DNA from: Paramyrothecium sp. XJ0827
Taxonomy: Eukaryota > Ascomycota > Sordariomycetes > Hypocreales > Stachybotryaceae
Direction of reading: 5' to 3'
Length of the DNA: 64,000 nucleotides
Assembly: GCA_020881915.1 (NCBI GenBank)
Contig: JAJFPB010000004.1
Coordinates: forward strand, 930,001-994,000
Shown: piece after piece, positions 2,135 through 24,169 of the stretch
Layout of the letters: each line of letters starts with the position of its first letter
Numbering within the stretch: position 1 is the first letter of the stretch
The notes under the pieces: generated by a model
Told to the model about the DNA's origin: nothing
The model's input: only the letters and a program-made list of their open reading frames with translations
The model's database searches: none
Program-made: the position numbers and the translations under genes

Positions 2135-3532
2135 TTATACTCGAGACCAAATACTCCAACCAGCTTTGTGCATCCTTGCTAACGTGTTGACAATTCCTCC
2201 GATCAATGTCACTGTCCCTGCCCAGACCCAAGCAGCGTTGTAGCTATACTCCTTACGCAGGGCCCCGGCTATCGGAGGCCCGAAGAGAAAGGCAACTGAG
2301 AAGGTTGCGAAGGCCATCCCAAACCTCGATCCCACCCGCCGAACATCTGAAGTCATTCGAACTATGACCGTTGGTAGCAGAGCAAACAGTGTCCCTGCGA
2401 AAAACCCATAGCACACGATTGCCACCACCAGCCGAGCGAGAGACGTAGCTGTAGTAAGGCAAAGGCTCGTGATACCAAGGCCTGTCGCGGTGGCAATGAT
2501 CATGTTCATTGGTCCTAATTGTTGCGCCAACATCAAAGGCAGTATTCGGCCAAATATTGAGCTAGAGTTTAGGATCGCTACCATGTAGAAAGCAAGTTCT
2601 TCTGAGGCAAGTTCTTCATCGATCGTGTAACTCTGGACATACACAAAAGGTGTATACAATCCAAGGAAAGTGACGAATATGCCAAGCACCAAAAGAATGT
2701 ATGGCCAGTCTCTGAAGGCCGTGGCATCAACAAGTGAGCGACGTACTCTCTTTTCCTTATCAATTTCTTGAGGTTGGAGGACAAGATTTGCGAGAACCAG
2801 CAAGACTAAAAAGATCAATGCCACTGCGCGAGCAGCCCATGGTAGCCCGACCTGTGCCTCCATACGTTTGATCATGATTGGTAGGACCACACTGGAAGAG
2901 TTCAGTACAGATTTTGAGCCATATCCTGGAACACAACTGACCCCCCGAGGCCACTTCCTGAGGCAGATATCCCATTTGCAATGGGCAATTTCGTAGTGAA
3001 CCACTGTGCGGGAATGGCAACGGTGGGTATCGAGAGCAAGCCAGCACCAAGGCCAACTAGGAGCCCTTGCGTGAGCAAATACTGCCAGTATTTCGAGCAC
3101 AAGCTTTGAAGCACGGTGCCGACGACGATAAGCAGCGACCCCGAGGTCAGCAAATAACGACAGTAGCCTGCGTCGAAAATGGGGCCAGTGAGGAAGCCAA
3201 GGAAAACCATAAGGAACAGTTGTAGCGATCCTATCACGGAAATTTCGAACGGGCTGCGGCCGCGTAGTTGGCCATTTTCATAAATCGTTTGGTATGTTCC
3301 GTAGCTGGACACAAGACCTGAATCGCAGTCAGATTTCCCAAGTCCTAGCCAGTGGTAATTTGACCGTAGCTATCCACATACCCCATGTACAGAAGTAAAG
3401 GCAGAAGACTCCTGCAACCTGTATCCAAGCTCTCAAGCCGCCGTTGAGCGGCAGATTCGTTGATTGGGTTGGGCTTGGGCGCGTTTCTTCTCGCGCATCT
3501 TGCACGGGCGGTTTGGCTTCCATAGTTGCCAT
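2135..3532 (-). CDS. Major facilitator permease, monocarboxylate-transporter (MCT) type
   Basis: Three exons on the minus strand, complement(2135..2891, 2942..3317, 3382..3532), give 427 residues. The introns are 64 and 50 bp, and both have a CTGAC/CTGAAC branch point. The joins restore two MCT family landmarks: TWGLVSSYGTYQ in TM1 and ISASGSGLGGVVLPIM around TM5; without splicing the frame is broken at both. About 12 hydrophobic segments follow a short polar N-terminus, and the length is normal for fungal MCT-like permeases, which act in the plasma membrane or vacuole. Substrate cannot be read from the sequence. It ends 600 bp from the isocyanide synthase gene on the same strand, so export of, or tolerance to, that pathway's product or uptake of a precursor is a reasonable inference. 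The start ATG at 3532 is followed three codons later by another in-frame ATG. Confidence 0.92.
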
Positions 3533-4134
3533 GGGAAGTGCCCATCCCCCAATGAACTTTTACTGGCACACTGCAGACGAGGTGAAAACCAGTTTGTTCT
3601 CGCCTCAAGAGGAACTATCCCACTTAACCGAGCGGAATGGGGCTGCACTACTCAGGAGGGTTGTATTCCCAGACCTCTAATGCATTTTATGACTCTTCAA
3701 ATCCCATAGGGCTTCGCTGGCCGGCAAACTTACAAATCTTGACTAGGCTATTGAGGTGATGGATGGGTCGGATGGGGTCTAAATGGAGACGTTCTCGGCA
3801 GTTCCGTGGCAGATGGGTCAGTGGCCGTCATAATCCCGAGGCGCCTAGCCAGGGTTTACGAACAGGTGTGGGTTCAAGGGCATGCAATGCTCCCGACCTG
3901 CCTTTTCAGTGCTGGCACATAACCAGGGGTAAATGACCACAAGACGCCACAACGGAAGTGGCTCAAAACATGCACTGGAGGTGTTCGTAACTTTCCCGCG
4001 TATTGTGAAGACCGTATACGAAAGGAATGAAGGCACACTCGGTTGATGGTCGTTGACCCGTTAAACATGATCGCCAACGCCTCATAGTTATAACTAGAAT
4101 TGAACTCGAAGCGCGCTAACATATGTACAAGCAA
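3533..4134. other. Spacer between MFS promoter and isocyanide synthase 3' end
   Basis: About 600 bp holding the MFS promoter and the 3' flank of the synthase gene. Only short frames occur on either strand, and I see no further gene. Confidence 0.6.
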
Positions 4135-6270
4135 CTAGTCAAAATGAATCCTCCATAGTTCCCTATCGCAGCCTGCCGTGAAATCACTCCTCGTGTGCAT
4201 CGTCAAAATATTATCACTCACTAGCATGTCGCCCTTTTCCCACGTATGATAATATGCGACACGGCGGTCATGCAGAACTGAGTCTATGGTGCCACAAATT
4301 TCAGAGCTATCTAGCTCAGAAAGTCCCTCGATAGCTATGTTGGTGGCGTCAAACTTGGTCTTCGACTGCGGCCAAGGCTCATGGTATCTCAAACATGGCT
4401 TTTGAGTATTGGGGTGCTCAATCACGAGCGGGAGTCTCGTCATTGCCGTGTTGTTGAAGCCTGGCGTGGATACAGACCAGGTCATGCGAGAGAGTGTCTC
4501 GAGGGGGATTTGAGAGCAGAGATGCTTGAAGATGAGTGTAGAAGAAGAGAATAGTGTGTAACCAGTATCCTTCGGTGATGAGGTTACAGCCTCGAAGAAT
4601 TGAAACCTGCGACCAGAAGAAGATTAGCATCTAGATTCAATAGGAAAGGGAGTTATTGCCCTACCGAGGTGGATCAGGTTGCAGATATTCTTGTCCATCA
4701 CTGTCTCGTTTCGCGACTGTTTTGAAGAGGCCGTCAAAATGGAATGGCATCCACTCTGATGACAGAACATTGTTAAGACCTCTTGTTTCTGTCCCTTGGT
4801 CTTTCACCTCGAGCACAAGACCAAACTTCCATGGCAAGGGCCTGCCAAAGTCCTCAGCTTTCTTGAGAAAGAGCTCGCGATTGGGAACTTTGGAGAAATT
4901 GCGCAATATAATGGGCGAGTTGATCTCGGACAAGGCTCGAACTTTCTTCGCGTCGACATCCTCAATACTCAAGCAACCCTTCCCTTTCGCTGGTTTAATC
5001 ATTATTCCGCTTGGGTATAGCGGCTCGACGATGATGCCACCCTTATCTTCGGCCCAGGTCAAGAGCGACGATTTCTCCCGGTAGTAGCTCGGTCTGCCAT
5101 CCTCGAAGACGAGCTCCAGTGCTTCATTCTGTTCAAACTCTGAACGCATCCCGGACAGAACTGTTCCATCCAGCATGAAGGCTACACTGCAATGCCAAGG
5201 CGTCGTGTAAATTGAGCCTGTTGGCAATAGGCTAATCGAAAGCTTGGAGGCTCCTGTAGAAGGGTGAATGGACAAACGAACATGGTCTTTATAGACAAGT
5301 CGTACTGCACTCGCAAAGGCCTGTTAACACTCGTCAGCGTTTAGTGCTCCAATCTGGGCGAAAATTGTCTACTCACGTCGCCGCGAACAAGCATCTGTTT
5401 AGCAATGTACTCAATTCCTTTCTTGTACTTGCTCTTTGACCGAGTTGCGCTTTGGGGGAAAACATCTTGCAAGTCTGTCTCCAGGAATTTGATGTAGCCG
5501 CGATATGTCATGCAGGTATCCTCATTCTGGATGACTTCCTTCCATTCTCGGCTCGGTTGCCCGTGAGTGTTGAGGAGGGCGCGACGGAAGTTCGAAGCAT
5601 TGGCGATGTAAGTCATCTCGTCCAATTCATCTGGTAATGCCATGGCCACCAGATCGCGTATGCGCGAAAAGGAGATATGGTTACAATTATGAGCCCTTGC
5701 CAAAGCTCGTAGAGCCTCACCATAGGCCCAGACGTCTTTGTCTGGAACGCCGAGAAGATCTATTCATGATGAGTGAGTATTTAATGGCAAGGAGAAGCTC
5801 GTTTTGACCCTACCGTTATACACGAGTCCATCGGAAATGATGGTTAGAGCTGCACCAGGTGGATAGATATCTCCGATGGCTTGACACAAACCATTCAAGT
5901 GTGCAAGTGCTAATGCCTCCGCTCGATCGGGCAGCTTTCCAAGCACTTTGTTGGAAGTGTTTGGCGATTTGAAAGGGAAAGCTGGGAGACACAGAGGTAT
6001 TGTGACATTTGCCTTGACATGGCTGTAAATGACGGCCAGAAACTTTAGAGCACCCTCATCTGCCTGCGTAGGCGTGCTACGACCTTTTATGATACGGTAT
6101 CGATCAATGACCTCGAGAATTTGGGAAGCCTTTTCCAAGGGCAAAGGATCGATTGTTTGGAGGAGCCTTCCGTGGTTGACGACCTGTTGGAGGGGATTCG
6201 ATTCCCCAATCTCGACCTTCGGTGGCGAAATCGAGGCATTCGCGTCCGGCGTATCGACGGCAGAAGGCAT
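4135..6270 (-). CDS. Two-domain isocyanide synthase - Fe(II)/2OG dioxygenase (Dit1/PvcA + TauD)
   Basis: Four exons, complement(4135..4606, 4665..5320, 5377..5759, 5814..6270), with introns of 58, 56 and 54 bp, give 655 residues. Residues ~45-370 form a DIT1/PvcA domain: PAFPFKSPN, KLPDRAEALAL, YPPGAALTIISDGLVYND, VRLSIHPSTG and KLSISLLPTG. This family turns the amino group of an amino acid, classically Tyr or Trp, into an isonitrile using ribulose-5-phosphate. Residues ~375-655 are a TauD/TfdA-type dioxygenase with metal ligands His474-x-Asp476 and His636 and the C-terminal Arg-x3-Arg (647, 651) that usually binds 2-oxoglutarate. Both active sites look intact. The order synthase then dioxygenase is the one I recall for fungal XanB-type enzymes, which make vinyl isonitriles. 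The chosen ATG at 6270 opens MPSAVDTPD; an in-frame ATG at 6345 would add 25 residues without family support. Substrate is unknown. Confidence 0.95.
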
Positions 6271-7597
6271 GATTTCTGTAACTTGAGGAAGGTTACTCTC
6301 ACCAATAGTAACAAGAATGAACAACTCGCTGCGTAAAATGATCACGCTTCGTGACGAGCTTGATAAATATTCCTAGTGCTGCTACCCTAGCATCCATCAG
6401 CATGCGTGGGCTGCGTCTCGTGCTCCCTGGAGTCATGCCAGTCCCCTTTCAGCCTCTACTCATGCATATGGGGCTCAAGGGGGGCAATCTCTATATTCCT
6501 GCATGCAACCAGCCCTCTCATGGGAATCCTTGTGCGTTCACGCTTGGATCAACGACAAAAACTGCTGCGCAAAGGCCTCCACATCCGGTCCGATCAAGGT
6601 CCATGAGATAGCGAAAATGAGAATTTGTAAGCTGGACCTCGGCAACTCCTAAGATCTTTTGAGACTCTCCCCATCAACCAGGGCAGAAATTTTCTGAGTC
6701 TAAGCAGCTGCGCCGGTTGGGATACCAGCGACTGCCGGAGTCATGAAAAATGACGCTTGTTAGTCTCAGGGCAGTGGAGATGGTCTACGCCACAATCAAG
6801 TTTTTCAGGGGCGCTTTGGGTAGCATACGTCTGAATAACCTTGTCATGATGCCATATACAAAGGTATGTATCGGTGTGATACTACACTGCACTGCAACAA
6901 GCCTGACAGGAGTTGAGGCGGGCAACTCCGTGACGATCCAAAAGTGCGCTGGGCCCGATAATCGCGTGGGGATCATCATGGCCATTGCCCCAGAGATTAT
7001 CCACCCACCTCCCCAAACAGGACTGAGAGCCTTGCGAAGCCAAGGAGAGGCACCACACCTTGCGACATTCGGGAAGGTGGGTTGGTCGATGCTCGCACGG
7101 GAACGACACCAATTCACGAAGTGGTCAGCGCTCTGTTGGGGAAGACAAAATCCGGGCATATGTCCTCTTGGGGCTCAGAAGGATCAAGTGTCGTGTCATC
7201 TGACTGCACGGAGCAGACGCCGTGTTGAAAGAAGATATGGCCGAGCTCAATGGAACAGAGGCAATATATGAGCTTGTCCACAGACTGTCACATCAAGCTG
7301 CAAGGCTGTGGCACATTACCACCATGAAAATACGAGGCATCAATTGACCTCGGCTAGTGACGTCCCGCTTTCCTCCTTGCAGACGCGATGTAACATGGCC
7401 CTGAAATGCGGCGGGTCTGCAAGGTGGGAGCGCCGATTACAGGGACTGTTGACGCGAACCTGACTGGGACTGCGCAATGACCAGGGTCGAAGAATTAGAC
7501 TGTCTTCATGTCTTTGTATTGATGAAGAATAAGTCTGCACCTGTTGCTGCGCGTTGGAGTGTGGTGTCAATTTCGTTATTGTCGTGAACAGTACAGA
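6271..7597. other. Divergent promoter region of the isocyanide locus
   Basis: 1.3 kb between the two divergent starts, expected to carry both promoters. Frames on both strands reach 124-173 codons (e.g. 6750-7271 plus), but composition and sequence show no family. On the minus strand near 6550-6650 there is a short stretch after an AG acceptor-like site that reads ...LIGPDVEAFAQQFLSLIQA then stop. It resembles a protein C-terminus, but I cannot join it to a credible upstream exon. It could be a gene remnant or chance. Confidence 0.4.
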
Positions 7598-9502
7598 ATG
7601 GGTTCTATTCCGGATCACAGCCAAGCGGCGAGTGCTGAGGATGCAAGAGAACTCAGCACTCATGATGTTGATGTCGCAATCGTGGGCGGTTTGTTAATCA
7701 CCCGCAACCTCTGCCTGCTCTCCACTCATTGATCCCAGGTGGCCCTACGGGCCTCTTCAGTGGGCTCTTGCTTCAACGGCTTGGTGTCTCCGTGAGCATC
7801 TTGGGTAACTCCCTCTGTGTTGGAGGCACAAGAACATCCAGTCTAACACCTTTCCCAAGATGCGAAGCCTCGAAGTTTGGAGTTTGGCCGAGCCGACGCG
7901 CTCAATGCCCGGACACAACAATATCTTGAAGTTGCTGGTTTATTGGACGAGCTCCTTCCCCAGGGTCTGGAATGCAACAGTGAGTTATCGTATTTGTGTA
8001 AATCAGCTGTAAAGCTAATTAGCAAAGACTGACACAAACACAGCCAGCTCAACATTTGCCAGTGGCGAGTTCAAATCGCGGCAAAATCAATGGTGGGTGA
8101 GCCTCGAGCATACCCTCCACAAGAATTTCCTTATGATCGGTCAACCGGTCATCGAAGCTATGTTGGCAGAACGCCTCGACGGATCTGTGCTCTACGGCGA
8201 AGTTGTCAATGCCATAGACGAGCGTGATGACCACGTCAGCATTGTTACGGCCACGGGTCGCAGACTACGCAGCAGATATGTAATTGGCGCTGACGGTGCG
8301 CGTTCCATGGTTCGCAACACTTTGGGCATAAGCTTCACAGGAACCAAGCCGGAGATGCTGTGGGCGGTGCTTGATGCGTTCATTGAAACCGACTTCCCTT
8401 CTTGCCCGGAAATCATCACTTTCCAAGTGGACGGTCAATCCCGTGTCTCCTGGATTCCACGAGAGCGTGGCCTCTCTCGTTTCTATGTTCTTCTCGATGG
8501 CGAAGTCACGTCCGAAAGAGCTCAAGCCAGTATCAAGACTCATATGGCTCCGCACAAGGTGGACTTTCGGAAAATTGAGTGGTACAGCACGTTTGACGGT
8601 AAGTCGAGAGAGAGAAACTGCTCAACATGAAATGGATGCATATACTGACATTGGGCGTAGTCAAGGAGCGTATTGCTTCAACTTTCATTTCCAGGGACGG
8701 CATTGGCCGAATATTTCTAGCTGGAGATGCAGCCCACGTACACAGCGTGAACGGAGGCCAGGGTCTCAACACTGGCCTGGCGGATGCCTTCGGTCTGGCC
8801 TGGCGGTTGGCCATGGCCACCAAGCAAGATATCGCTCCACATGTTTCCCAGAAGCTGCTTCAAAGCTACGATCTGGAACGCAGAACTACTGCTAAGGGCG
8901 TGATTGATGTTGCAGCTGCGCTTGTCAGGGATACGGTTCATGAAGCCAAGAAATATGTAGCGACAATCCAAAGGAATGCGGGATACATCACAGGTAAGCT
9001 CCAGTCTTTAGGTTTTTACAAGCAACTACTCTTCTGATTGGCTCACATTGGATCAGGCATGGGTGTTTCATATCACGACATGCTCTCACCATTGGTGATT
9101 GCTTCTAGTCACGGGATCTGGAAAGCAGGCCATCGATGCCCTGATGTTGTACTTCTGGCTTCTGAGGGAGACAAATCATTTTGGCTATACACCGAGGTGA
9201 AATATGGAAGGTTCATCGTGCTGTTTATTGGCAAACCCAAGAGTCTTCCCAAAGAATATTCCCAGATGGCTGTGGCCCTCTCCATTGTGTCAGCTAAGTC
9301 CAAATCCAGAAGCACAGGGGATATCGCAGACATTTCGACATTGATCCAATCTTTGGGTGGCTCAGACTTGTTTGCTGCGGACTGGGTTGCGGAAGACGAG
9401 GATTATGCGGTGGTTGTTCGTCCAGACATGTACATCGGCTATGCGGGAACGACAGAAGAAGGCTGGAGGCAATATCTTGACCATGTCTTCTTCAGCACAT
9501 AG
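7598..9502 (+). CDS. FAD-dependent monooxygenase (phenol hydroxylase / PHBH-like)
   Basis: Six exons (7598..7688, 7739..7804, 7860..7979, 8044..8598, 8661..8993, 9057..9502) with introns of 50-64 bp give 536 residues. Class A flavoprotein hallmarks are complete: the dinucleotide-binding VAIVGGGPTG at residues 26-35, the GRADALNARTQQ segment, a DG motif (VIGADGARSMVRNTLG) and the FAD ribityl site GDAAHVHSVNGGQGLNTG. A C-terminal thioredoxin-like fold is expected for phenol 2-monooxygenase relatives and fits the length. These enzymes use NAD(P)H and O2 to hydroxylate aromatic or other activated rings. Divergent position 1.3 kb from the isocyanide synthase suggests a tailoring role, for instance on a tyrosine-derived aromatic isonitrile; that is inference. 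Fungal secondary-metabolite clusters commonly contain such hydroxylases. Confidence 0.93.
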
Positions 9503-10513: not shown

Positions 10514-11770
10514 TTAGGTCAGGCGCTCGAGCCGCTCGACGTAGCTCTTGACCTTCGCAATCTGTTCTTCCTGCAGCTTCGCAACGCGGACCACGTATCC
10601 ATCGTGGGTCATCAATTGAAGCTGATTGACCGCTTGCAGGCGTTGCAGCTCCTCGGATATGCGGGAGAAGTAGGAAGCCCTCCTGCTCGCTTTGTCAACA
10701 GTCCCCTGTGGCTTTTGCTCGTTAGTTGCGCTCATACACGGCCACTTTCAGCCGCTCGAGTTCGCGGCCGAAAGGGGCTTCTGATTCAAGAAGATAAGAC
10801 TACTAACCTCAGAGCCCTCAATGCTCGGCTTGATGTTATTGGAGACAGCTTGCTCCTTGAGAGACGTGCTATGCGCAACGGACGACGGCGCGGAGGCGAG
10901 GCCCAGGGTCTGCGCAGAGAAGGCATGCTTGTTGACCTGGCCTGTCTGCGTGCTCTCACCGTCAGTAGCTGAGTTGCGCTGGGCCTCGACACGATCGGCG
11001 GAGGGCGTTGCTTGTTGCAGTGCCGCACCCGCCGGCTCAGCTGTGGTTGCATGCGAGAAGATTGGCACATTGGGGGTGGATGCGATTCCAGGCTCGGACT
11101 TTATGATGTTGGAATGCTCAGCTGAACCAAATGCGTTGCCAGATGAAGAAATTCCGGGCAAATCAGTCTCATTCTTCTGCGAAACTTCTGTTTTATTTAT
11201 AAGATCTTTCGCTGGTTCGGGTGAGATGCTGTCGTCTGCGGCCGGTGGAACTTCCTTTGTTTTGAGGCGCTTGTTCTTGCCGGCCTTCTCCTGAGACGCG
11301 CCTTTTCTGACCGCCTTGCTTCGTCCGCGGCGCTTCTTGGCAGGCTTCCCGGTGGAAGACTCGGAGGCGGACTCTGTCTCGTCTTCGAGATACTGAGGTT
11401 CCGGGCATTCCCACGAGCCGCAGTCGTGGCCCGGGAAAGCCTCCTTGATGCGCTTCCCAATCGCTGTGTTTTTGAGCAGATCCCACCCGCCAAACATAAT
11501 CTTGATGCAACAGGCGAGCGCCCATGAAGGATTGGATTTGAATGCCACGACAATCTTGTGATGATATCTGGTGGCCGGGGAGGTGCCCGTGAAGCGTGTC
11601 ATTTTAGGCACATTGGCCTTGAACATGCGAATTTCGCTGACGGGCCAGTCGGGAACATGCTTCTCAAAGACAACCCGCGCGAGGGTGTGCCAATCGCGCT
11701 CTTCGCCCTCTTGTCCTGCGAAATCGGGAAAACGTTGGATAAGTATTGCGTGCTCAGCGCGTGCGGCCAT
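10514..11770 (-). CDS. Uncharacterised basic, probably nuclear protein
   Basis: Two exons, complement(10514..10744, 10808..11770), give 397 residues. The 63-bp intron has a GTTAGT donor and a CTGAAAG acceptor; the branch site is poor, so this join is the weakest point, and read-through would instead end about 20 residues later at ~10748. Residues 1-135 are a compact segment opening AEHAILIQRFPDFAGQEG and containing Cys and Trp residues. A highly basic block with a likely bipartite nuclear signal (KKRRGRSK ... KNKRLK) follows, then ~170 Ser/Ala/Pro/Thr-rich disordered residues, then a C-terminal coiled coil (ISEELQRLQAVNQLQ ... SYVERLERL). The start at 11770 has an excellent CACCATGGCC context; an ATG 18 bp upstream is in frame but weaker. 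I do not recognise the family. Confidence 0.75.
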
Positions 11771-13573: not shown

Positions 13574-15393
13574 CTATGCAGAGTATTTCTTCAACGTAGC
13601 TCGGAGACCCGGGTTATGGACCCCCTTGACCGTGCCATCCCGCACGTCAAAGTCAAACTCATCAACAGGTCTTCCCGCGTACCGAAGCATATCAACGAAT
13701 AGCCAGTTACTGCACGCATTACTCGGCAGTGAAGCATCAAATCCGTCAGGCCTGGTTTGTTCGAGCGCCATCCGCCATTTGCCGTCCTCGACGGGGTACA
13801 GCCTCGCATCCAGCTTGTCTGCCTCGATCCCTCGTACCGCAGCAAGTGCGTCCAGGATCGGCCTACCATTGTTCGTCCATTCCTCAATCTTGAGACCCGG
13901 TCCGTCGTCTAAACGAAGCTCGAGCGTTGCCTGTGTTTTGTTTGCCAAGTCGCCACCTAAGCCGAGATATCGACCCTCAAAGATCTTGGCCTGCGTCCTC
14001 GCCAAGGAATCCAACGCCGGCACGAGTCTTGCCGTGACAAGGTCCGTTAACTGCATTACCGTGTTGTACGTGCCGTCTCCGCTCGCAATAATCGTTCCGC
14101 CGACGTTGTAGTCGGGTAATAGGAACATCATCGTAGAGTAGCCGGGCATGTCTCCCAGTTTTGAGTACATGTCGATTGGTCGACCATCAGGAGTCAGCCC
14201 CGAGAGATGAATGATTTCCCACGGCATGCCTAGGGACATAGATAAGGCTCCTGCAAATGACGCCGGCTTGAGCCATGATCGAGTCTGCGCAGGATTGAGG
14301 AGTTTGTTGTGGAAAATGGACCGTATAAAGGCCGAAAGGTCACTAGCAGTGGAGTACAGTCCAGCACTCCTACATTGAGAAGTGAGCGGCTATACAATGC
14401 AACATGCAGGACTGGGTGACTTGACATACGATTTGAGGTTGCCGACATCATAGTCGATGATGGAACTCGCAGCACCAACCGGAATGATTGCCCGCGATAG
14501 CTCCGGGCTTGCCAACCCAGTGGACGATAGTCCCAAAGGCTCTGTTATTTGCTCCTTCAAGAGCTGTTCCAAGGGTTTACCTGCAATGCTTTCCAACGCC
14601 CATCCAAGCAGTACCAACGCCTGGTTAGAATACGCTACCTTATCACCAGGAAGCGAAACCAAGCCGTCCGAGAAGAGCTTATCGAAGAATTCTAGCACCG
14701 TCAACATTCATCTCGCACGCCCAAGGGGAAACAGCATACCAGCTCTAGTGCAAAGAGTGCCCCCGAGCACGTCGCAGATCGGCACATCCCCGGGGGCTGG
14801 TAGAGGGAAGCCACCCTTTTGAAGGACATCTCCATTCGAACTAAACAGATCGACGATGGCACCTTGCTTGCGTCAGCTCACTGGAGGGCATTCTAACATG
14901 GTGTGAACAAACCATCTCGCGGCAGGCCCGAGAGTTGACTCGCAAGCATCCGCAGTGTGATGCCTCCATACGTCTCCAGGCCCTGGAGCTCAGGCACGTA
15001 CCTCGAAACCGGAGTGTCGAGCTTCTCGTGGGCGTCCAGCAGCAGGAGCAAAACACTGAACACTTTCGTGATGCTCGCAACGCGGTACACCGTGTTCGAG
15101 TCAACGCGCCCGACGCCCCGGGGGTCGCGAAGAGCTGCGGTGTGGTGATACTCGAAGAAGCTGTGCTCCGAGGAGGTGAGCTCCACGGAGAACGAGGTCG
15201 TCGACACGTTCCAAGGGGCGCTGCCGCTCTGCATCAAGGCATCCAAGTGCTGTGTAAGGTTTAGGGGATTGAAGCTGGGTGCTACGTGCGGCGGCGGCAG
15301 CACCGGCCCAGTCGGGGGACAATGACCACCACCTACACCGTCCGCGGCGACCGCCAAAGCGCTGAGAGATGGGACAAACGCTGTGAATCTCAT
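13574..15393 (-). CDS. Secreted serine beta-lactamase-like hydrolase
   Basis: Four exons, complement(13574..14369, 14430..14691, 14740..14862, 14913..15393), with introns of 60, 48 and 50 bp, encode 553 residues. A signal peptide of about 18 residues (MRFTAFVPSLSALAVAADG) indicates secretion. The class C beta-lactamase/DD-peptidase fold is shown by Ser107-Ile-Thr-Lys110 (SxxK), Tyr222-Ser-Asn224 (YxN), the PLGLSSTGL region and a KLG in the place of the KTG box. A ~180-residue C-terminal domain follows, as in other fungal LACTB/AmpC-like proteins. Such enzymes hydrolyse esters, amides or lactams; antibiotic hydrolysis is not implied. It is not obviously linked to the isocyanide locus 4 kb away, although a hydrolase could act on a secreted product. 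Confidence 0.93.
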
Positions 15394-17133: not shown

Positions 17134-18968
17134 CTTGGGTGACCGTTCGGTTGCTCGACGATGGAGTACAGCTTGCGATGAGAATAGGCGCACTGGTGAA
17201 TGCTTTGGCACGATAAGTAGAGCTGATTGTACTATTCTCATGCCAGGAACTTGGGTCTACAGCCTGTTCTGTTTCTTTTTTTATTATGTACGAAGGTAAG
17301 GAAGTAAGACGGTCGATCGCTGGAGGCGAATCTCAAGCAGCATGGTATGATATCATCATTCTACCTACACGAGCTTCCAATTGGGAGCTGTGATTGGTGG
17401 TTATGGAGGATTACTTCCGGCTGCCTTTCCCTCCAACAAGGCATTAATTGACACGAACCAAGATGAACACGATAGAATGATGAAGCAATTTATCATAGCG
17501 ACCATGCATGCAAGATGCATCTGTTTGTATGTTGAGCTGGTTCTAGGGTGCTGTTCTGTCAGCCAGTGTCGAGCCACAACACCGCCACAGCCGGTGTATC
17601 GCCTGGTCGTGGCTCGCCAGCAAAACCCTTTTGATACGACGCTCGGCCAATTAGTAGGCGAAGGGAGGGTGAATCGGCCTACAATCGGCGCCAACGAAGG
17701 TGCATGTGTCACAACCGTCACGCATTGTGTTGGAAGCCCAGCAGCCCGCGTGGGGAGACACCGAAGACCGGTAAATTTAATTGCCGCAAGAAGCCGAAGC
17801 AGAGCGAAGCAGCCGAGATCAACGGGCTTGGCTTGTTGAGTTGGAAATTTGTCGGAGAAGCTCCCTTATCAGCGGGCGTTACGTCACTACCGAGGCACCC
17901 AATCAGCGCGCCGGCCAAGCGGGAGAAAAGGGCACGCACGGGTCCCCTTTTAGCTTATTTAGCGGGCCGAGAACGGACCTGCGCAGTGGTTGTGCAACAG
18001 CTTGTGCTGTGCTGCCGTTAGCGAGGGGACTGGGGACTGGGGACTGGAACTGGAGACTGAGAGTTCCCACCAGAGCTCTCTCTGCCGAAACGAACCGCCA
18101 GGGTGGGAGCTCCAGCTTCAGCAGCTCCAACTGCCGGGTGAAACAGCTCTCTATCGATACCGATTCCTTGCCTTGCCTTGCCTTGCCTTGCCTTACCGTG
18201 CGTGCCTGACGTTGTATCCGAAGCAGAAACGAAACAAGCCGGGGGAAAAAACAGTCCCCAACCTTTTTTTTTTCTGTAATCTCCCCATCTGCAAACCCAG
18301 CATTCCCTTTGGTTCGACACTCGAAGCTCATCAACCACAAGAAACAACTCTGTAGCAATTTACTCGCTACTCGGCTACAACCTCACTCGCTCATTCACCC
18401 TCCGGTCCCTTATTCTGTACCTTGCCCGACCTGAACCTCACCGAACGCGAGGACCTACCTCCATACCTCCTCACCCACCGCCCTTCTCCACCCACCCTGT
18501 CTCTCGAGTTGCCGGATCTCCGCCGTGCGTCGCAGGTTGTCAGCCCTTGCCTTTCCCATTCCCCTTCGCTCGTCGCTTTGCTCCTCCTATCGCCCCACCC
18601 TCCGTCGGTGTCACTGCGCGGGAACGGCGCAGCGTAGCGTATCACGTCGCATCGTTTGCACATCAGATCGAAATCGAGAGGGAAAAAATCGCTAGCTTGC
18701 GCCCCCCGTGTTTGCTGCTGTAACTCAACTGCAACCAGCCCTGTCGAACCCCGAAACCCCCCACCACTGCCCACTGCTGCTGCACTGCACTGCTCGCGCA
18801 CGTACGCTCACACACGCACACACACCCAAGACTCCCTCCCTACCTCCCACACACACCTTTCAGCTCCAAGCCCTCCACTTCCGTTGGGAGCTGCATCTCC
18901 GCTCTCGCTCCTCCATTCCCCTCGGCTTCTTCTTCTTCTCCTCTTCTTTTCCTTCTCCTCCCCCCCCA
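17134..18968. other. Divergent promoter region with pyrimidine-rich 5' leader
   Basis: 1.8 kb between two divergent genes. The part from ~18350 to 18968 is strongly C/T-rich on the plus strand (many CTCC and CTTC runs), as in leaders and promoters of strongly expressed fungal genes, and probably belongs to the carbonic anhydrase transcript. No coding region is supported. Confidence 0.55.
18166..18195. repeat. CCTTG pentanucleotide microsatellite
   Basis: Five perfect CCTTG units (18166-18190) followed by CCTTA, in the divergent promoter region upstream of the carbonic anhydrase gene. The minus-strand unit is CAAGG. Confidence 0.95.
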
Positions 18969-19826
18969 ATGTCAATCCCACATTCTCGCCTCCCTGGTGT
19001 CTTGCGACCCGTAGCCCGATCAATTGCTTCTTCCTCTTCTCCCTCCGCATCGTCTCTGCTCCTCCGTCGACAGCCTCTTCTTGCATCATCTGCTTCACCT
19101 AGCTTCTTCTCCACCTCGGCATCCCTACCCAAGTCCAAGGACCCCAACCACTGGCGCACCATGGCCGAACAGGACGTCTCCAAGTACCTCAAGCAGTCGC
19201 ATGACCGGCTCTTCGAGAACAACCGCGCCTGGGCCGCCGACAAGCAGAAGAAGGACCCGGCCTTCTTCGCCGCGCTCGCCGAGGGCCAGAACCCCGAGTA
19301 CCTCTGGATCGGCTGCTCCGACTCGCGCATCCCCGCCGAGCAGATCACCGGCCTCGAGCCCGGCGAGGCCTTCATCCACCGCAACATCGCCAACCTCGTC
19401 TGCAACACCGACCTCAACGTCATGAGCGTCATCAACTACGCCGTCCGCCACCTCGGCGTCAAGCACATCGTCGTCTGCGGCCACTACGGCTGCGGCGGCG
19501 TCAAGGCCGCCATGACCCCCAAGGACCTCGGCCTGCTCAACCCCTGGCTGCGCAACATCCGCGACGTCTACCGCCTGCACGAGAAGGAGCTCGACGCCAT
19601 CCCCGACGAGGCCGCCCGCTACGACCGCCTCGTCGAGCTCAACGTCTTCGAGCAGTGCCGCAACGTCATCAAGACCGCCGCCATCCAGCAGTCCTTCGCC
19701 AAGAACCAGTATCCCATCGTCCACGGCTGGGTCTTCAACTTCCACGACGGCCTTCTCAAGGACCTGAAGGTCGACTTCGAGGCCGAGCTGAAGAACGTCC
19801 AGAAGCTCTACAACCTCGTGGAGTAG
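18969..19826 (+). CDS. Beta-class carbonic anhydrase, probably mitochondrial (possible cytosolic second start)
   Basis: A single-exon gene of 285 residues. Zinc ligands Cys116, His172 and Cys175 (IGCSDSR; CGHYGCGG) and the Asp118-Arg120 dyad are present, so it should interconvert CO2 and bicarbonate, supplying biosynthetic carboxylations and CO2 sensing. The first 64 residues are Ser/Arg-rich with almost no acidic residues (MSIPHSRLPGVLRPVARS...), a typical mitochondrial presequence. The ATG at 19161 (residue 65) sits in a very strong GCACCATGGCC context exactly where the conserved domain begins, so leaky scanning could make a cytosolic form. The frame is open further upstream to 18708, but that part is low-complexity leader. 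Codon use is extremely C-ending, suggesting high expression. It resembles the mitochondrial CAS2-type enzymes of Sordariomycetes. Confidence 0.95.
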   Translation: MSIPHSRLPGVLRPVARSIASSSSPSASSLLLRRQPLLASSASPSFFSTSASLPKSKDPNHWRTMAEQDVSKYLKQSHDRLFENNRAWAADKQKKDPAFFAALAEGQNPEYLWIGCSDSRIPAEQITGLEPGEAFIHRNIANLVCNTDLNVMSVINYAVRHLGVKHIVVCGHYGCGGVKAAMTPKDLGLLNPWLRNIRDVYRLHEKELDAIPDEAARYDRLVELNVFEQCRNVIKTAAIQQSFAKNQYPIVHGWVFNFHDGLLKDLKVDFEAELKNVQKLYNLVE

Positions 19827-20623: not shown

Positions 20624-23600
20624 TTAAACCTCGGTCGCCGCTTGACCCTGGGGCACAACACCTCCAACGGCGCTCTTCGAGGTGCTGTACTTGGAGGTTG
20701 ACTCGCCAGTGTCCTTGCGCGAGAAAGAAGCCCATGTCTTGAAGCTCGACATGGACATGGTCTTGCGGAACTTGACGCCCTGGTCGTCGGAACCACCCTG
20801 GCCCCAAGAACCGCGCTGGACGGGCAAATCCTCCAGGAGATGGAAGTGGCGTTTGATCATCTTCCACAGCTCCATGCCAGCAACGAAAACAACGGTGAAG
20901 CCCACCGACAGCGCCCACTCCCAGGTGATGCCGCGGTGCTTGAAAAAGTTGGTGTTGAGGTAAGGGATGTAGACGACGGGGAACACAGAGAGGGCGCCAA
21001 TGATGACGGACCAGAACAGGAAGCGGTTGGCGTAGAGATCCTTGAAGAGAGGGAACTTCTTCTCCTCCTCGGGGTTGAGGCGGAACATGGATCGACGCAG
21101 ACTCTTGAACTCCCAGGCCGAAATCAGAATGAGCCATGTGAGCTCAGCAAAGGTAGCGGCGCGAGCCTTGAAGACAGCCTCGCAAGCGTCGGTGTACTTG
21201 GTGTTGCAGTCCTGGCCGAGGTTACCTCCGTAGGCGCCGTAGACGATGATGCAGAACGTGACCATGGTGCAGGCGCCCATGATGCAGCCGTAGACGATCA
21301 TGTCGACGATGACCTGGTTGGTGAACACACCGCGCTTCTTGTCTTGAGGCGGCTTGCGCATGACATCGGGCGCGGCAGCTTCACGACCCAGACCGAAAGC
21401 AGGGAACGAAGAGGTAACCATGTTGATCCAGATAATCTGGAGCGGGGAAATGGGGAATACAGAGAAACCTGTGTCGTCGACGAAACCAAGACCGGCAATC
21501 AGAAGGATGACCTCTCCGACGTTGGAGGTGAGCAGATGGAGGACGAACTTCTGGATGTTGTCGAACATGCGGCGGCCCTCACGGATGGCAGAAACAATCG
21601 AGTTGAACTTGTCGTCGGTGAGCACAATCTTAGAGGCCGACTTGGCAACATCGGAACCAGAACCCATGGCAATACCGACATCGGCACGAGACAGTGAGGG
21701 GGCGTCGTTGACACCATCACCAGTCATGGCCATGAAAGCACCACGGCGGCGCAGAGCCTCAATCATACGGGTCTTGGTGTCAGGAGCGCAACGAGCAATG
21801 ACAAGGGGCAGCTCCTCCAGGCGGTCAATCTCCTCGTCGGTCATCTTATCGAAGTCGGTAGCCTTAACCACAATGGACTGGGCCACAGAGTCGGGCAGAA
21901 CACCGAGGTTCTTGGGGATGATACCGACTTCCTTAGCGATAGCCTTGGCGGTCTCGGGGTGGTCACCAGTAAGCATGTGTACCTTGATACCGGCGTTGGA
22001 ACACTCGCCAATCGAAGGCTTGGTCTCGCGGCGAGGCGGATCGTAGATGCCGACCAGACCAAGGAGGGTGAGGTCCTTCTCAACAACAGCACGCAGCTTC
22101 TCTTCCTCCTTGGCGTTGGTGCTTTGCTTGTGGGTGAAGCGACCTTCCCAGGGACGGTAGGCGACGGCGAGAACGCGCTGGCCCTGAGAGGCAAGGTCGT
22201 TCATCTGCTTGAGGATGTTCTCCTTCAGAGCTTCGGTCATAGGCTCCTGGCTTGCACCAGTGCCGGAGAACGCGCACAAATCGAGAATTCTCTCGACGGC
22301 ACCCTTGGTGAACACCATGCTCTGCTCAGTCTCGATAATGGAACCGCTTTCGCCCTGAGGAGCATCGTAGATAACGGACATGCGCTTGATGGAGGAGTCG
22401 AAAGGGAATTCAGCAAGCTGCTTCCAGCCCTTGGACTCGAGAGACTTCTTTCCGTAGTTGAAGCGGTGGGCAAAGACTTGGAGGGCAATTTCGGTCGGCT
22501 CACCAGTAGTCTGCCACTTCTCCTCTTCCTCGTCATATCGGACAGTCGCCAAGTTGCAGAGAGCGCCAGTCAGAAGGAAGGCTCGCAGCTCATCAATCAT
22601 CTCGCACTCCTGCTCAGGCACAGGCTCCTTCTTCTCGGGTCGGTTGAGTTTCTCATCGGGGACGTCAAACTTCAGCACTGCGGCACTGCGCTCGCGATCA
22701 TAATCACGCTTGGGCTCCTCCTTCTCGGGTTCGGGCTCTGCCTTGTTCTGCGAGTAGGTAACGCGGCCCTTGGTGGGGTCGTTGGGGCTCTGCGACTCGC
22801 GAACAGTGTAGAGGTGTGAAGAAGGAATCCAGGCGTTGCGGACAATCATGGCTCCCTCAGTGAGAGTGCCGGTCTTGTCGGAGCAAATGTTGGTAACACC
22901 ACCCAGAGCCTCGAGCGCGGACAAGTCTCGAACGACAACGTTGGCCTTGCGCATGACGGTGACAGCAACAACCATGGTGATGGTCAAGACAGCAACAAGA
23001 GACTCAGGAATGATAGCAATACCCAGCGAGGTGGCATAAATGATGACTTCGTGACGCAGGTCAAAGTGGTTGACAGCGAACACAATGACAGCCAAAATGA
23101 GGGCACAACCGAACAGGACATAGGCCAAAGCAGAAAGCTTCCTCTGAAGAGGAGTACCCTCAGTCAGACCCAAGAACTTGCCGATAATATCGTAAATACG
23201 CTTGGAAAGGCCAACAACGGGCTGGCGCTTGCCGTATTTACGCCAGTTCATGGAGCGACCAGCCTTACGTTGCTTCTTGGAAGTAGAGGCGGCGATCTTG
23301 CCGACCTCGGTGGTCATACCAGTGAAGACGACGATACCACGACCACGACCCTTTCGGACAACGGTGGTGGCGTAGGCCATGTTAACTCGGTCGCCGATAC
23401 CAAGCTCTTCCTCGCTGGTAACAAGCTTCTCGTTGTCGCCGGTAAGGTTGTTCTCGGTGATCTTCTCGACGGGGATCGACTCGCCGGTCAGCTGGCCTTC
23501 CTCGCAGGCAAGGTTCATGGCTTCGAAGAGACGAAGGTCGGCAGGGACGGTGTCACCCGTCTTGAGCAGGACAATGTCTCCGGGAACGACTTCGGGGCTG

Positions 23601-24169
23601 GTGGCGCGCAGTTAGCAAATGGCATGATGGGGCTCGAGCAGGGAGCTGGGCAGAATCTTACTTGGAAATAACCTGGGTCTTGCCATCACGGAGGACCATG
23701 GCACTGGGAGAGGAGAGAGCACGCAGGGCGTCCATGCGCTTTTCAGCGCGGTACTCTTGCCAGAAACCAATGGTGACGTTGAGCAGAATGACAAAAACGA
23801 GGACACCGCCCTCGATAAAGTCCTTGATACCGAAACTAAGGGCCATAGCGAACACCAAGACCTGAAGTCGCAATTGAGTTAGCGCCCCAGTTCTTTCAAT
23901 TTCTCTTATGTTGTATGGGAGGTATTGGAGGGGCATCGAGAAGTAATGTAAGTGGGGATAAAACTCACAATAATCATGGCATTGAGGACCTGCTTGGTCA
24001 AAATCTTGTACCAGGCCACACTCTCGCCTACATCGAGCTCATTGGGGGGATACTTCGCCTGAGCCTCGCTCACTTGCTGCGAAGTAAGACCCTTGTCGAT
24101 GGAGGTACCGAGAGCTTGGGCCGTCTCCTCAAAGGTGAGGAGGAACGGGTGCTTGGGAAACTCAGCCAT
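20624..24169 (-). CDS. ENA1: ENA-type (P-type IID) sodium/potassium efflux ATPase
   Basis: Three exons, complement(20624..23597, 23662..23861, 23969..24169), with introns of 64 and 107 bp, encode 1124 residues. It is a P-type ATPase: cation-ATPase N-terminus (HPFLLTFEETAQALG), TGES (171-174) of the actuator domain, phosphorylated Asp374 in CSDKTGTLTEG, nucleotide-binding domain, and TGDGVNDAPS hinge. The TM4 motif IPESLVAVLTITM (Ser rather than Gly after Pro-Glu) separates ENA sodium pumps from SERCA calcium pumps. Length and the acidic insert after the phosphorylation site fit fungal ENA proteins. It should export Na+ (and K+) across the plasma membrane under salt or alkaline stress. The C-terminal tail is Ser-rich and may be phosphorylated. 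The GC-rich antisense frames over this gene are shadows. The symbol is by family; fungi often carry several ENA paralogues. Confidence 0.96.

Follow-up and report, generated by a model that had tools for sequence, protein, structure and literature searches.

Known isonitrile systems and a three-gene locus in Paramyrothecium

Isocyanide synthases (ICS) have been surveyed by mining 3,300 fungal genomes (Nickles et al. 2023, PMC10153163). Among its gene cluster families (GCF), GCF 6 is a widespread ICS-TauD family of unknown product, found in Sordariomycetes, Eurotiomycetes and Dothideomycetes. We analysed a 64,000-nucleotide stretch of the fungus Paramyrothecium sp. XJ0827 (positions 930,001 to 994,000 of contig JAJFPB010000004.1, in a 51.8-Mb assembly of 15 contigs, GCA_020881915.1), hereafter the window, and describe in it an isonitrile locus of three genes, all at 2135-9502: a permease and an ICS-TauD fusion on the minus strand, and a divergent flavin monooxygenase (FMO) on the plus strand. 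The locus is real and its motifs are intact, far beyond chance. Its FMO proved to have a sister clade beside the isonitrile genes of bacteria, a link that, as far as our searches go, is new.

Each of the described systems resembles this locus in part. In Aspergillus fumigatus, XanB and IcsB are ICS-dioxygenases (Lim et al., PMC5974471), and XanB, from the xanthocillin (xan) cluster, has the same fusion architecture as the window synthase. Tailoring differs, with the cytochrome P450 XanG there and an FMO here; none of the P450 matches found lay inside the window, with 92 of 399 candidates scored, so that P450 absence is not fully shown. In the dit superfamily the ICS is monodomain, whereas here it is fused to TauD. 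The crm cluster shares the ICS family and is copper-regulated, but its backbone is of the kind in which ICS is joined to a nonribosomal peptide synthetase (NRPS)-like part, with acyltransferases, in place of the TauD of the window synthase. The pvcABCD genes of Pseudomonas aeruginosa (paerucumarin) likewise combine an ICS and an iron- and 2-oxoglutarate-dependent (Fe/2OG) enzyme, with additional tailoring genes after them (PMC3639982). PvcB, however, retains the carboxyl group and is of the isocyanoacrylate type (PMC9467999); the window TauD falls on the other side of this division.

The ICS-TauD gene (4135-6270, minus strand) encodes 655 residues and has three introns (5760-5813, 5321-5376 and 4607-4664), which, like all introns given here, were picked from GT..AG borders and reading frame. 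In Pfam, DIT1_PvcA (9.7e-98, residues 81-349) and TauD (1e-20, residues 493-652) matched the same chain. The protein was 85% identical, over 96% of the query, to one from Paramyrothecium foliicola (Hypocreales, Stachybotryaceae), the nearest named relative of the locus. Among solved chains, the ICS domain matched PvcA (3e59) and the C-terminal domain matched PvcB (3eat) and PIsnB (7tcl). Six checked ICS positions were identical in 120-121 of 121 aligned ICS-TauD proteins, and the three presumed iron ligands were kept in 119-120. An earlier note, made from the letters of the window, had placed a compact isocyanide locus of three genes, with complete active-site motifs, at 2135-9502; its coordinates were correct, and Pfam domains and conserved catalytic positions bore it out.

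Enzymes that form vinyl isonitriles are told apart from those that form isocyanoacrylates at two positions, by K or R at K107 and N or H at N188 of PIsnB (PMC9467999). The window TauD reads K and H there, as the rule asks of the PIsnB type. Among the 121 homologues, the first position is K in 114 and R in 3, and the second is H in all 121; PvcB, taken as a control, has L and C. These residue rules from the literature predict a decarboxylating, vinyl-isonitrile-forming dioxygenase.

The permease gene (2135-3532, minus strand; introns 3318-3381 and 2892-2941) starts at 3532 or 3523, giving about 424-427 residues. The product is a major facilitator superfamily (MFS) permease of the monocarboxylate transporter type: it matched MFS_1 at 1e-28, and NCBIfam monocarboxylate/lactate transporter models at scores under their cut-offs. 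Its residues 1-424 were 85% identical to the C-terminal part of a P. foliicola protein (P0001) that is annotated as ICS and permease in one protein. Eight FMO matches from other fungi were in turn annotated as a single protein with a permease 49-62% identical to ours. Gene order has thus shifted within the trio: the permease comes after the ICS in the window and P. foliicola, but after the FMO in these eight annotations.

The same neighbourhood recurred in many ascomycetes. Homologue searches returned 620 ICS proteins and 4,744 FMO proteins, the best 120 of each being listed, and 69 permeases. At least 42 of the 120 listed ICS matches shared a contig with an FMO match, as judged by pairing exact contig sizes for the 117 FMO matches that could be sized; when sizes were shifted by 1, 2 or 7 either way, all six controls gave 0. 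Six of the shared contigs measured 17-34 kb. For the 54 permease matches used in this comparison, a contig was shared with 9 of the 120 ICS matches and 10 of the 117 FMO matches. Locus tags, compared by eye, were consecutive in 16 of 17 comparable ICS/FMO pairs and seven apart in the other, and in four genomes ICS, FMO and permease bore three consecutive tags. The cluster therefore has the conserved biosynthetic and transport neighbours expected of ICS-TauD clusters. We also ran a mirror-tree comparison on 42 ICS/FMO pairs (r 0.893, 0 of 2000 permutations), and set it aside as evidence because shared species history alone would give such a correlation.

The ICS-TauD backbone and the wide ascomycete spread of the homologues recall GCF 6. 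The window cluster may belong to that family, a placing we hold loosely since backbone and distribution are common to other ICS-TauD families. Conserved co-location, which the earlier note had set as a check, was thus found, but its statement that it could match the combination to no described cluster is unsupported or out of date: the same genes lie adjacent in many ascomycetes, and a survey of ICS clusters exists (PMC10153163). ICS-TauD clusters are a known kind, and so for the most part is this conserved pathway; new and testable is the role proposed for its FMO.

The flavin monooxygenase and its bacterial sister clade

The FMO gene (7598-9502, plus strand; introns 7689-7738, 7805-7859, 7980-8043, 8599-8660 and 8994-9056) encodes 536 residues. 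It matched FAD_binding_3 in Pfam at 2.5e-60 and was 80% identical over 100% of the query to its P. foliicola counterpart, while the best paralogue in the same genome reached 34% identity over 224 residues. The closest solved chain was VibO (7yj0, 1.4e-48). An AlphaFold2 model of the P. foliicola orthologue, built from 63 sequences (mean pLDDT 85.3, pTM 0.89), had VibO, TvMNX3 and phenol hydroxylase as its best structural matches. R63, D65, R238 and Y240 of the window FMO correspond to R97, D99, R287 and Y289 of VibO. With its FAD_binding_3 fold and catalytic Asp and Tyr, the protein is a phenol-hydroxylase-like group A enzyme; it has the catalytic residues of phenol hydroxylases, and phenol hydroxylation itself is predicted from sequence and model. 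VibO carries out a ring-expansive oxygenation of a phenol to an oxepinone, along with some hydroxylation (PMC10257657). It is the nearest solved relative in sequence and fold and shares the R/D/R/Y active-site residues, but identity is 27-29%, the substrate is another one, and VibO stands outside any isonitrile pathway.

Outside the fungi, the nearest relatives of this FMO were bacterial. An ICS alignment was run against one genome for each bacterial or archaeal species; 209 relatives were confirmed, and the 80 best loci were retained. At 21 of these 80 lay an FMO gene 39-47% identical to that of the window, and in 19 of the 21 its frame overlapped the TauD stop by 4 bp; the other two (L087 and L099) had intervening sequence. 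The named FMO-bearing loci belong to Pseudomonadota, Bdellovibrionota, Myxococcota, Bacteroidota and Actinomycetota. In each of ten whole genomes, with adjacency computed from locus coordinates, the gene next to the ICS was the best FMO match (325-357 bits), the next best anywhere scoring 122 bits. The bacterial loci share with the fungal one the pairing of ICS and Fe/2OG enzyme, joined by a sister-clade FMO. They differ in that isnA and isnB are separate genes and not fused as in fungi, and in the two diagnostic TauD positions, which are mostly R/N in bacteria as against K/H in fungi. No permease match was found at the 80 bacterial ICS loci at 1e-5.

The bacterial FMOs belong to NCBIfam NF005531 (PRK07190; cut-off 530 bits), a model of an FAD-binding protein for which no function is stated; the one from locus L052 scored 876.6 bits against it. 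The window FMO scored 432.3 bits, under that cut-off, so that the fungal clade is a sister of the family and not a formal member. In the converse search, we looked for NF005531 at E < 1e-100 or 1e-120 in groups chosen for a known carrier of the trio, weaker FMO relatives being excluded. It occurred in 1 of 274, 5 of 65, 2 of 2 and 2 of 296 genomes, one genome being counted twice; the class-wide scan of 274 genomes returned only the carrier already known. TauD and ICS lay directly upstream of all nine distinct NF005531 genes, five of which are outside the loci derived from the ICS search.

The FMO tree joined 29 fungal and 21 bacterial FMOs of isonitrile loci (100/99) against eight other FMOs, and the fungal and bacterial sides each formed one clade (98/100 and 99/99). 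The eight outgroup FMOs came from the same bacterial genomes and had very long branches, whose meeting the program warned of. At 120 positions both fungal and bacterial FMOs were at least 90% conserved; 46 of these, D65 and Y240 among them, were found in at most one of the eight outgroup FMOs. The tie of this FMO clade to bacterial isonitrile genes is an observation, as are the gene content, the domains, the catalytic residues and the fungal neighbourhood. The phenol-hydroxylase-like description given in the earlier note stands, although the counterpart beside isnA-isnB had been missed.

Some bacterial loci carried further genes. By eye, a LysR-like divergent gene was present at 7 of the 21 FMO loci (L043, L053, L067, L071, L072, L076 and L084), and an ATP-grasp-like gene at 5 (L025, L043, L067, L085 and L087); the first 150 residues of the ATP-grasp-like protein gave no match in Pfam. 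In the Pseudomonas locus L099, a DJ-1/PfpI gene (10835-11518; PF01965, 3.7e-31) lies between TauD and FMO and possibly encodes an isocyanide hydratase for self-protection. This gap between TauD and FMO had suggested that the FMO could be a homologue of PvcC (presumably HpaB-like) or PvcD, an idea we dropped because the gene in the gap is this DJ-1/PfpI protein.

The proposed pathway and its alternatives

We consider it probable that the locus is a small fungal isonitrile pathway leading from an aromatic amino acid to a vinyl isonitrile, then to a ring-oxidised isonitrile, and to export. The ICS domain would make an isonitrile of the amino group of the amino acid, tyrosine being the likeliest candidate. 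The fused Fe/2OG domain would then form a vinyl isonitrile with loss of the carboxyl group, which would be 4-hydroxystyryl isonitrile if tyrosine is the substrate. The FMO, as a dedicated enzyme of the pathway, would oxidise the phenol ring, by default through ortho-hydroxylation to a catechol or, alternatively, through ring expansion of the VibO type, and the permease would export the product or move a precursor. The chemistry of each step, the nature of substrate and product, and which way the permease transports are all deduced from what is known of the families. The order put forward earlier, with isonitrile formation, oxidation of the decarboxylating type, a ring-acting FMO and a transporter, is supported as a prediction by domains and catalytic residues.

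Several observations weigh against this pathway. Single mutations at both diagnostic positions left the product unchanged (PMC9467999), which makes the vinyl/isocyanoacrylate rule a correlative one. In the bacterial count, from which 6 of the 80 loci are excluded because their TauD match was weak, 29 of 53 FMO-less TauD proteins also satisfied the vinyl rule, and 6 of the 21 FMO-bearing ones did not fully match it. The window ICS scored 135.9 bits against the NCBIfam model of L-tyrosine isonitrile synthase (NF045653), far below the cut-off of 600. Finally, 59 of the best 80 bacterial ICS loci lacked an FMO of this kind, and in the Legionella covered by PMC5126622 isnAB always comes with a helix-turn-helix protein and a cytochrome P450. 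Our Legionella locus L076, unlike these, carries the FMO; the third enzyme therefore differs between isnAB loci.

The FMO might instead expand or open the phenol ring, and the pathway would then lead to isonitriles with altered rings, of which the cyclopentene isonitriles of Trichoderma are known examples. Both isonitrin A and isonitrinic acid E derive from tyrosine and retain eight carbons and the isonitrile, which fits the carboxyl loss proposed for the second step. Orthologues of both ICS and FMO occur in Trichoderma, the oxepinone-former VibO is the nearest solved relative by sequence and fold with D99, Y289, R97 and R287 all kept, and the two compounds are named among fungal isocyanides (PMC5974471). 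Given its distance from VibO set out above, we regard ring expansion as unlikely, though worth keeping in view. That the FMO and the permease are ordinary neighbours, standing outside any isonitrile pathway, is conceivable in fungal genomes, where FMO and MFS genes are numerous. Yet the neighbourhood is kept across many ascomycetes, eight FMO-permease and one ICS-permease fused annotations exist, and the same FMO clade stands beside isnA-isnB in bacteria, which makes such chance company very improbable. Slightly less credible still is a dit-type pathway, in which the synthase would make formyl-tyrosine or a dityrosine precursor for the spore wall. The Pfam family is the same, and several databases name the homologues after DIT1; but Dit1 is monodomain and paired with a P450 (PMC10153163), whereas the window synthase carries TauD and, among the candidates scored as above, the window has no P450 match. 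These two features also speak against a grouping with yeast DIT1, which the earlier note had named as a refutation.

A further proposal of the earlier note was that the product could be a metallophore. Isonitriles are copper ligands, and in A. fumigatus both the xan and the crm cluster are copper-responsive (PMC10153163, PMC5974471), so that a copper-binding product made under copper limitation could be imagined here too. No copy of TGCTCA, the core of the Mac1 site, was present in the 1,937 bp scanned, against about 1.4 expected at window density. These comprise the stretch between permease start and ICS-TauD stop (3533-4134, scanned as 3526-4135) and the 1,327-bp interval between the divergent ICS-TauD and FMO gene models (6271-7597), which presumably holds both of their promoters. 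As a control, the crm-like locus of the same genome had 7 cores in 9,901 bp and was not enriched either, so the scan decides nothing. Among the tabulated Mac1-dependent genes of Fusarium oxysporum are those of the crm cluster and none named as ICS-TauD, two being called merely uncharacterized. In A. fumigatus, icsA and icsB, the latter a candidate orthologue, were silent under every copper condition examined in PMC5974471. The metallophore idea thus gained no positive support, and we regard it as improbable. As a side observation, one imperfect inverted repeat (7372-7387/7412-7427) lies between ICS-TauD and FMO.

Surroundings of the locus and history of the trio

Pfam searches of the flanking frames scanned (an upstream coiled-coil-like frame, 10.7-11.8 kb and 13.6-14.4 kb) gave no family above cut-off, so no further cluster gene was seen adjoining the three. 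A serine beta-lactamase-like frame (13574-14389, minus strand) came just under, with 26.2 bits for PF00144 against a cut-off of 27, and is probably outside the cluster. Farther on, a carbonic-anhydrase-like gene (18696-19826, plus strand) and a P-type cation ATPase (20624-23611, minus strand) were recognised by eye, both of them ordinary metabolic genes outside the cluster. The DJ-1/PfpI matches found all lay outside the window.

The genome has six ICS loci, and only the window ICS is adjoined by a TauD match, with DIT1_PvcA and TauD in one protein. The crm-like locus (contig C13, 2404083-2405044) has ICS exons beside AMP-binding C-terminal, PP-binding and transferase domains, its neighbours being an alcohol acetyltransferase, an alpha/beta hydrolase and an MFS gene. 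On contig C7 (622814-625797), two tandem ICS genes are accompanied by a DJ-1/PfpI (isocyanide-hydratase-like) gene and an MFS gene, the latter about 34% identical to the window permease, with a P450 about 7 kb further. An ICS gene on contig C10 (4728525-4729497) is accompanied by AMP-binding, PP-binding and transferase domains encoded on the opposite strand, and resembles the ICS with separate NRPS-like gene of GCF 8 (PMC10153163). Another on the same contig (3896674-3897585) has no adjoining TauD match and lies near alcohol dehydrogenase, ubiquitin hydrolase and HET-domain genes.

For the ICS and TauD domains we built quick trees, including every second FMO-less bacterial locus. In both, all fungi stood apart from all bacteria and were not joined to the FMO-bearing bacteria, 17 of whose 21 loci formed one clade (98 in the ICS tree, 95 in the TauD tree). 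On these grounds the bacterial trio tends to travel together, and the fungal ICS and TauD appear to have no special tie to it. A single transfer of the whole trio, with which the FMO tree is compatible, was not retained, given this lack of a link between fungi and the FMO-bearing bacteria in the other two trees. Either a transfer of the trio after which ICS and TauD changed faster, or two recruitments of the same FMO family, may lie behind this pattern.

Our literature search, with most subscription journals outside its coverage, brought up neither a product for any ICS-dioxygenase-FMO cluster nor a description of the bacterial operon. The locus is a minimal and widespread type for which we found no product described. 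A bolder view, which we hold as doubtful though somewhat less so than ring expansion in the window enzyme, is that ICS, vinyl-forming Fe/2OG enzyme and FMO are one pathway of bacteria and fungi that moved as a unit, the FMO being the long-missing ring-oxidising, perhaps ring-expanding, enzyme behind the tyrosine-derived ring-altered isonitriles of Hypocreales such as Trichoderma. The tie of PRK07190 to isonitrile loci gives this unnamed bacterial family a likely role. The ring-oxidation step of two kingdoms can thereby be reduced to one enzyme assay, in which a missing step of isonitrile chemistry becomes testable.

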